DNA of 64,000 bases from Oscillospiraceae bacterium (GTDB lineage Bacteria > Bacillota > Clostridia > Oscillospirales > Oscillospiraceae), in NCBI GenBank assembly GCA_902774015.1, contig CACYHB010000001.1, positions 1 to 64,000 on the forward strand, in the 5' to 3' direction. Of this stretch, positions 22,029-38,262 are shown piece by piece. Positions within the stretch are counted from its first letter, which is position 1. Each line of letters begins with the position of its first letter. The notes beneath the pieces are model-generated. The model saw only the letters and a program-made list of their open reading frames with translations. It searched no databases and was not told the DNA's origin. The translations under genes and the position numbers were made by a program.

Positions 22029-22715
22029 ATGCTGTACGCCATCGGAGATCTGCACCTGTCCCTCTCCAACGACAAGCCCATGGACGTGTTCGGAGAGGCC
22101 TGGCGGGATCACGCAGAAAAACTGAAAAAGGGCTTCTCTGCACTCAAGCCGGAGGACGTGACGGTCCTCTGCGGCGATCTGAGCTGGGCGATGAGCCTGC
22201 AGGAGGCTCTGGAGGACTTTCGCTTTATCGACGCGCTGCCGGGGAAGAAAATCATTCTGAAGGGCAACCACGACTTCTGGTGGAGTACCGCCGCGAAGGC
22301 CAGAAAGCTCTTCGCCGAAAACGGCATCGAAAGCATCGAGATCCTGCACAACAACGCGATCCCTTACGGCGATGCGGCCCTCTGCGGAACGCGAGGCTGG
22401 TTCTACGAGGAGGAGCGCGGGGTGGAGCATGACAAAAAAATCATGCGCCGGGAGATCATGCGTCTGGAGGCCTCGCTGCGGGCGGCGGGGGAGCGGGAGA
22501 AGCTGGTGTTTCTCCACTATCCGCCCATCTATCAGAAATACGAATGCCCGGAGATCCTGGAGCTGCTGGAGCGCTACGGGGTCCGGCAGTGCTTTTACGG
22601 GCATATCCACGGCCGGGGCATCCCCGGCGCCTTCAACGGCTGGCGCGGGGCGACGAAGTTCCGCCTCGTATCGGCGGACGCTGTGAATTTTACGCCGGTA
22701 CCGGTGCTGCTGTAA
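22029..22715 (+). CDS. calcineurin-like metallophosphoesterase
   Basis: 228 aa. All five metal motifs are present: YAIGDLHLS, VLCGDLSWA, LKGNHDFWW, FLHYPP and FYGHIHG. The family hydrolyses phosphoesters with a two-metal centre; the substrate cannot be predicted. No signal peptide. The stretch after it is the long repeated element. Confidence 0.92.
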   Translation: MLYAIGDLHLSLSNDKPMDVFGEAWRDHAEKLKKGFSALKPEDVTVLCGDLSWAMSLQEALEDFRFIDALPGKKIILKGNHDFWWSTAAKARKLFAENGIESIEILHNNAIPYGDAALCGTRGWFYEEERGVEHDKKIMRREIMRLEASLRAAGEREKLVFLHYPPIYQKYECPEILELLERYGVRQCFYGHIHGRGIPGAFNGWRGATKFRLVSADAVNFTPVPVLL

Positions 22716-22751
22716 GGATGATGGTTCATCAAATACTCACCCGCTCAGACA

Positions 22752-23146
22752 AATGAGCTGCGTGATGCGCCCCCCTATCTTTCTTTTCGGTACTTGCCCG
22801 AAAAGAAAGACAGCGCCGCGCCCGGTGTAAGAAAGAAAAGGGCGCTCACAAGGACGCCGTGCCTTTTGCGCCGCGCCGTTCGCGGAATGGCTTCGCTTCG
22901 CTCGCGCCGCTGCCTGGGTGCTGCGTTTACGAGCCGCCGTGTCGTGTTTTCCTGCGCTTTCGTTCTGCACAGCATAGCGGCAGCGGACACCCTGGCGCAC
23001 CCGGTATGCCAACATTCTGACGGCGGCGACCTACGATCAGACCTTGTGCTGCCCACTCTGAGTAAGCGGCCTTTCTCTTTGGAGTACAAGAACCGTTTCT
23101 CTTTCCGCAAGAGGAAAGAGAAATGGGTCTTGATAACCGCAGGCTG
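22752..23146 (-). repeat. dispersed non-coding element, copy A (about 395 bp)
   Basis: Read on the minus strand it matches 37814-38262 over most of its length, with a variable middle. Shared blocks include a conserved hairpin TTTCTCTTTCCTC..GGAAAGAGAAA at the left, CTTGTACTCCAAAGAGAAAG, and GCGAGCGAAGCGAAGCCATT. A right-hand 16-bp stem around GCAAGTA lies at about 22778-22816. Reading frames within it are not conserved as proteins between copies. No transposase or obvious target duplication. It may be a structured RNA or a non-autonomous mobile repeat. Confidence 0.85.
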
Positions 23147-23213
23147 CCCTTTCCGGGCGCCGCAAAAACACCGCAGATACGCATATCTTCGCTTAAAGTT
23201 TGCGATTTAGTCA

Positions 23214-37712: not shown

Positions 37713-37813
37713 TTTTGTCATACTCGGCATGCTGGATCATCGGCGAGATGGGAGGCAAATACCGGTGAACACGCTGGTAAGCGATTGCGTAATATGCAGT
37801 TGCTCAAAAATGG

Positions 37814-38262
37814 TAGGCTGCGCATATCAAGACCCATTTCTCTTTCCTCTTGCGGAAAGAGAAACGGTTCTTGTACTCCAAAGAGAAAGGCCGCTTGTCA
37901 GAATGGGCAGCACAAGGTGTGATCGAGGGTCGCCGCCATGCGAATGTTGGCATGCCTGGTACGCTTCGGTGTCCGCTGCCGCTATGGCGTGCAGCTCCAA
38001 GTCTCTGCCTCTCCCGTACAGGCGGCTCGGCATATGTCCGTCTTGCCTGTAGGGGCTGACGTCCTCGGCAGCCCGCCAACAGCCGCCCGGGGAGCGGCGC
38101 GAGCGAAGCGAAGCCATTCCGCGAACGGCGTGGCGCAGAAAGCACGGCGTCCTTGGAAGCGCCTTTTTCTTTCTTACACCGGGCGCGGCGCATTCTTTCT
38201 TTTTGGGCAAGTTCCAAAAAGAAAGAATGGGGGGGCGCATCACGCAGCTTAGTCTCTCTGAA
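37814..38262 (+). repeat. dispersed non-coding element, copy B (about 450 bp)
   Basis: The same element as 22752-23146, inverted relative to it. The left hairpin (about 37836-37865) is identical in sequence. The right hairpin (about 38192-38228) has the same 16-bp stem length with compensatory changes. The middle (about 37995-38095) is longer and unlike copy A, with its own inverted segments (AGGCGGCTCGGC, GTAGGGGCTGACG). No gene fits the 37674-38437 stretch. Confidence 0.85.

Follow-up and report, generated by a model that had tools for sequence, protein, structure and literature searches.

The window, by which we mean the whole 64,000-nucleotide stretch analysed here, carries two copies of one repeat in opposite orientations. 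Copy A, on the minus strand, is flanked by a metallophosphoesterase gene and the trigger factor gene (tig), and copy B, on the plus strand, by a LytB/S1-domain gene and a gene whose MotA/ExbB match falls just under the cut-off. An end-to-end alignment of the two copies (query positions 1-442) shows 78% identity, the shared part being 22756-23152 (minus) in A and 37808-38249 (plus) in B, and the inverted-repeat pairs between them are of 149, 89 and 97 nt, with 85-94% complementarity, and of 49 nt, with 73%. These pairs and the alignment bear out a sequence-only reading of the window, which had proposed two inverted non-coding copies with bounds that were off by a few bases. The genome contains so many matches that a chance resemblance is ruled out. 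The features of both copies are as follows.

22716..23193, minus strand: whole insertion of copy A, 478 bp, between the metallophosphoesterase stop codon and the tig upstream region (judged from the empty sites in the related genomes G067 and G073)
22713-22715 and 23194-23196: TAA at either side of copy A, in the flanks of the insertion
22769..22835, minus strand: tail (T) hairpin of copy A, 16-bp stem (module profile, hairpin alignment)
22865..22917, minus strand: S arm of copy A (module profile)
22966..23073, minus strand: R arm of copy A (module profile)
23083..23140, minus strand: head (H) hairpin of copy A (module profile, hairpin alignment)
37808..38249, plus strand: copy B, shared part, outer ends approximate (alignment to A; G073 without the element)
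37820..37877, plus strand: head (H) hairpin of copy B (module profile, hairpin alignment)
37891..38027, plus strand: R arm of copy B (best score from the related L model; R signatures)
38049..38074, plus strand: GTAG-tagged REP-like palindrome at the apex of copy B (palindrome pattern search)
38088..38140, plus strand: S arm of copy B (module profile)
38169..38234, plus strand: tail (T) hairpin of copy B (module profile, hairpin alignment)

The details reported earlier for the hairpins also hold. The first hairpin is identical in A and B from TATCAAG on, and the last keeps a 16-bp stem and a 7-nt loop in both copies, with pair 3 being C-G in A and T-A in B in the aligned rows of both, pair 14 G-T in A and T-A in B, and pair 15 T-A in A and A-T in B. 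The middle had been described as a variable insert; arm and apex do differ between the copies, B having the extra GTAG palindrome, but this region is made of recurring arm modules (R and S) rather than of a plain insert. Both copies fold more stably than 100 shuffles each (z of -3.10 and -3.43).

We found no coding capacity for a transposase in the two window copies. The 8 ORFs of the two window copies gave no Pfam match at E<=0.001 (one reached 0.035, below the cut-off), and 4 of them gave no PHROG at E<=0.1, so that both copies share with MITEs the lack of a transposase-coding sequence. A known Rfam family was considered and rejected, as the window has no match at the gathering score and the sole hit of both copies up to E<=1 was a miRNA at 25.6 bits against a cut-off of 96.

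Modular architecture of the repeat

The family unit is roughly 450-500 bases and folds strongly. Complete copies are imperfect inverted repeats in which an outer repeat is followed by an end hairpin of type H or T, one arm, the apex, a second arm and the other end hairpin. The arms are of type L, R, S or M, and some copies have a GTAG palindrome at their apex; in 47 copies, the outer edges of the end hairpins are 290-629 bp apart. The outer terminal repeat is degenerate and about 40 nt long. By eye, the H and T ends carry the same repeat and inner hairpin in inverted orientation, that is, the terminal inverted repeats that are a trait of MITEs, and the outer ends resemble GTATAG...TTTTCTCC...AAGCTGCG.

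We scanned the loci of the own genome and the fetched contigs with nine module profiles, the apex palindrome having yielded no profile. The L and R models match each other in inverted orientation, so the two halves of the element are homologous. Among 26 two-ended copies of the own genome there are at least seven architectures, according to hand-corrected signatures: H-L/R-T (12 copies), H-R/S-T (4, to which both window copies belong), H-M/S-T and H-R/L-H (3 each) and the rarer H-L/S-T (2), H-M/R-T and H-R/L-T (1 each). The module profiles also revealed H-H and T-T copies, showing that the halves are interchangeable, and three copies that consist of hairpins standing alone or nearly so (part of L088, L103 and L105). 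The correction was needed because the M signature is too loose: all six own T-M calls were read as T-S, the S signature lying just behind each, the H-M calls of L088 and L105 were taken as false, and the H arm of L095 as L instead of R. No arm was detected by signature at 10 of 71 own ends and at 34 of 84 ends in other loci. R arms sit on 15 own tail ends, a distribution that led us to consider an invertible body acting as a phase switch; arm swapping between homologous halves is the reading we prefer.

The GTAG palindrome of the copy-B subtype occurs, with 0-2 mismatches, at 10 sites of the own genome, 9 of them in elements (C27:12021 lies outside), and with up to 3 mismatches at 14 sites compared to 5 for a reversed control pattern. 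Of 24 own two-ended elements, 11 were flagged as carrying it, about 3 of these 11 being false by eye; the other 13 and copy A went unflagged.

Several further modules were observed beside those described. Module I, of about 105-113 bp (CCTTGCCGCAAATGCC...GCAATTCCA), lies between the head hairpin and the arm in some copies and elsewhere too (L084, L086, L112, L115, L117 and L153; in L117 it stands beside an arm segment). A third end-hairpin type (CCCTATTTCTTTGG...CCAAAGAAATAGGG) replaces H or T at one end in the close species G067 (L269, L271 and L272, on contigs C152, C94 and C85). Modules K and J are nested in some elements and are also found as separate repeats in G073 (L348, positions 97-186, and L338); L348 is the G073 stretch at the site of L111, and the main element was not found in G073.

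Distribution and element-free sites

Scoring 40 out of 65 first-look candidates gave at least 91 local matches to copy B in the own genome (G000; 2.78 Mb in 88 contigs), and hand grouping of the hits from the copy-B and head queries places them at about 42 sites, many of them partial. A search with the outer ends returned 17 matches at known places and two further element ends, which are both ends of contig C11, and no matching transposon. Altogether, 11 of the 176 contig ends fall within an element or adjoin one (C4, C9, C10, both of C11, C18, C24, C32, both of C43, and C44), as expected, since repeats break assemblies.

Matches were present in 17 of 60 genomes, in nine of them to the apex palindrome only. 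The sequence-only reading had held that a lack of further copies in relatives would count against it; beyond the own genome, we found matches in at least 7 of 59 relatives (G002, G021, G022, G027, G030, G031 and G036, weak in G030), all within the 36 genomes of the same genus, and none beyond the apex palindrome in the 23 genomes of other families. These counts are lower bounds, since scoring was limited to 11 candidates for each genome. In a second survey of nine same-genus genomes, with up to 40 candidates scored in each, G067, G066 and G030 had matches outside the apex, five genomes matched in the apex only, and G073 had no match of either kind. An exact search of the genome contig collection with a tail pattern built from own copies retrieved 58 stretches, 56 of them from MAGs labelled Ruminococcaceae, Oscillospiraceae, Eubacteriales, Clostridiales or Clostridia, some with labels that mention rumen, abomasum or sheep. 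The other two come from Proteobacteria (L136 and L138, the source of the latter being placed there by what we take to be its class), and we regard both as chance because they have no module hit. A distant blastn of copy B against plasmids and phages gave no match, and one IMG/VR viral contig has three weak tail-hairpin-like hits of 26-36 bits (L178, 2045-2757).

Eight of the approximately 42 sites (A, B and L106-L111) could be compared by synteny with G067 and/or G073, which are the closest species according to one protein (88% and 86%, respectively). In a sensitive rescan, all 14 spanning stretches, covering all eight sites, lacked H, T, L, R, S and M at E<0.01, as did two contig-end stretches; one weak L hit was seen (L265, E 0.077), L348 carries the different repeat K/J, and some stretches, L344 and L349 among them, hold other inserted DNA in place of the element. 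Absence from orthologous sites could in principle also reflect loss in the relatives. The cleanest site is that of copy A, where 15 bp (G067) and 20 bp (G073) separate the matched flanks, the insertion is 478 bp long with TAA at either side, and the tig upstream sequence is retained to its right. At the site of copy B, the matched flanks are 113 bp apart in G073 versus 645 bp in the window. Among 30 loci, a text search for the tig start in relatives found 4 candidates, of which one is doubtful. A TAA/TA target duplication at copy A, a single imperfect site, is suggestive only, since a short TAAAGTTT sequence is duplicated in tandem there in both relatives and could mimic a TSD, and the ends cannot be placed elsewhere because the intergenic sequence is too diverged.

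Orientation with respect to the neighboring genes looks random, as the first ORF outside the tail hairpin points away in 43 cases and toward it in 41, in a crude count that took in ORFs of 120 aa or more from all fetched loci except the window (with overlapping loci kept and three viral-contig rows included).

Covariation and folding of the end hairpins

To assess covariation, we selected a varied set of 45 sequences for each hairpin, out of 94 hits for T and 57 for H. In the T hairpin, 97.8% of the cells are paired over 44 distinct sequences, both sides change at 8 of 16 pairs, and the covariation score is 0.249 compared to 0.075 in shuffled alignments, with 0 of 500 shuffles as high (for further pair types, shuffles reach the observed value in 23 of 500). 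In the H hairpin, 90.6% of the cells are paired over 45 sequences, both sides change at 10 of 20 pairs, and the score is 0.269 versus 0.136, again with 0 of 500 as high, two of the five measures being no better than shuffles (double-change pairs, 107/500; further pair types, 478/500). The earlier reading would have been undermined by an alignment of many copies without significant covariation, and both sets covary. Consensus folds of the arms alone are weak (-7.8 and -8.2 kcal/mol for L), so we limit the claim of covariation to the H and T hairpins. Whole elements fold well: of the 47 two-ended elements, the first 24 have a mean z of -5.6 (20 shuffles per element).

Wobble pairs are distributed unevenly between the strands. 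With fixed stems, the plus strand of T has 22 G-T and 1 A-C cells (44 sequences) and that of H 10 G-T and 36 A-C cells (42 sequences, with rows L123, L131 and L154 turned and the ambiguous L088, L103 and L105 dropped), counts that are not independent, as shared descent is uncorrected and 27 of the 36 A-C cells stem from one pair. The orientation of those rows does not alter the covariation figures for H. From these counts, the wobble-tolerant strand is the outward-reading one at both ends. The outward strand also folds better in 32 of 47 left halves and 31 of 47 right halves (63 of 94), and its preference for wobble hints at the folding of single strands.

Strong covariation at both ends, wobble asymmetry toward the outward strand in T as well as H and the greater stability of that strand are what could be expected from a dedicated structured RNA family (a small RNA or a cis-regulatory element), selected for its RNA function and spread by duplication, which the sequence-only reading had put forward as one of two options. 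However, the covariation of a palindrome can also be kept as DNA, the wobble counts do not represent independent events, and a dedicated RNA would sit poorly with near-random orientation to genes, absence from orthologous sites, interchangeable halves that include H-H and T-T copies, and a window without an Rfam match at gathering score. The covariation over 45 chosen copies per hairpin gives that proposal partial support; no fixed gene context was seen, and we consider a dedicated RNA family improbable. The other option, a non-autonomous mobile repeat, is supported by the copy number, patchy distribution, empty orthologous sites, mosaic build and near-random orientation, and a mobile repeat rather than a dedicated RNA gene is the best reading of this covarying family.

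Mobility and relation to known repeats

The family is real and belongs to a known kind, and its combinatorial build is unusual. It has many copies, mosaics of its modules, covarying hairpins and element-free orthologous sites in two close species. Copies A and B are probably non-autonomous mobile repeats of palindromic and modular build, similar to MITEs or BOX and observed here only in Oscillospiraceae-type Clostridia. A transposase supplied in trans would act on the outer repeats and insert the element at TA-rich targets, the halves would be reshuffled at their shared palindromic cores via recombination or template switching, and pairing may be kept because one strand folds while the element moves, or because its RNA folds when it is transcribed. 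A bolder version, which we put forward tentatively and regard as rather unlikely, is that the halves are independent interchangeable units, each with an end hairpin selected for folding on the outward-reading strand, and that they would move or recombine as single-stranded halves to give new combinations in each genome.

IS630-type DDE_3 transposases were not detected in the own genome, in a search whose control was positive in 3 of 14 genomes, and no paired ends around a long insert were noticed among the loci listed (about one-third) in the profile scan of 352 sequences. The lack of a partner transposase is weak evidence, because the assembly is a fragmented MAG.

Movement through single-stranded DNA by a REP-associated Y1 (RAYT-like) transposase, with the family as a REP/BIME-type element, would agree with the strand bias of the wobble pairs, with the position of the copy-B GTAG subtype inside elements at 9 of its 10 own sites (0-2 mismatches) and with a Y1_Tnp ORF at G000:C7:446-679 (L262), among GTAGGGGCGGATATCATCCGCCC repeats. 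However, the match of this ORF is weak (24.2 bits, cut-off 23), GTAG went unflagged in copy A and most own two-ended elements, and the element ends are inverted repeats without the GTAG tag, so we give this mechanism little credence for the family. The RAYT-like ORF could explain the apex palindromes and not evidently the whole element; together with the GTAGGGGCGGATATCATCCGCCC repeats, it probably represents a REP/RAYT system in the genus.

With this family, the few composite bacterial repeats known gain a large combinatorial member from uncultured gut Clostridia. Its covarying hairpins form a natural series in which to examine whether selection acts on mobile repeats at the DNA or at the RNA level, and they serve as a caution that two covarying hairpins in a single genome are not necessarily the mark of an RNA gene. 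A description of the family was not found in the titles and abstract openings of the open-licence PMC papers that our searches listed.

MITEs such as RUP and Correia are associated with TA duplications. The family shares with them terminal inverted repeats, many copies and, for the window copies, the lack of a protein match, and resembles them in a TA-rich target at one site only. RUP (107 bp, linked to IS630-Spn1) and Correia (up to 156 bp plus ends), as given in an excerpt of PMC3049150, are simpler and shorter, and in the own genome neither an IS630-type DDE_3 transposase nor matching transposon ends were found; small mobile sequences of this sort are reviewed in PMC2229807 (in excerpt). 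To REP/BIME sequences with RAYT, as portrayed in parts of PMC2817692 and PMC3733652, the likeness consists of the Y1 ORF and the apex GTAG palindrome of some copies, which fits a GTAG/CGTC tag beside a 20-40 nt palindrome; this is not the repeated unit of the family, whose ends, unlike REP, are not GTAG-tagged and whose element is about ten times longer. The nearest in kind is BOX of Streptococcus pneumoniae, described in the relevant passages of PMC3049150 as a modular intergenic repeat with end and optional inner modules that folds strongly, is nested with other repeats and has been proposed to be non-autonomously mobile. The likeness (modular, folding and presumed mobile) is one of description, and the family differs from BOX, as those passages present it, in its host, its larger size, and its two halves, which are homologous and inverted and exchange arms from one end to the other.
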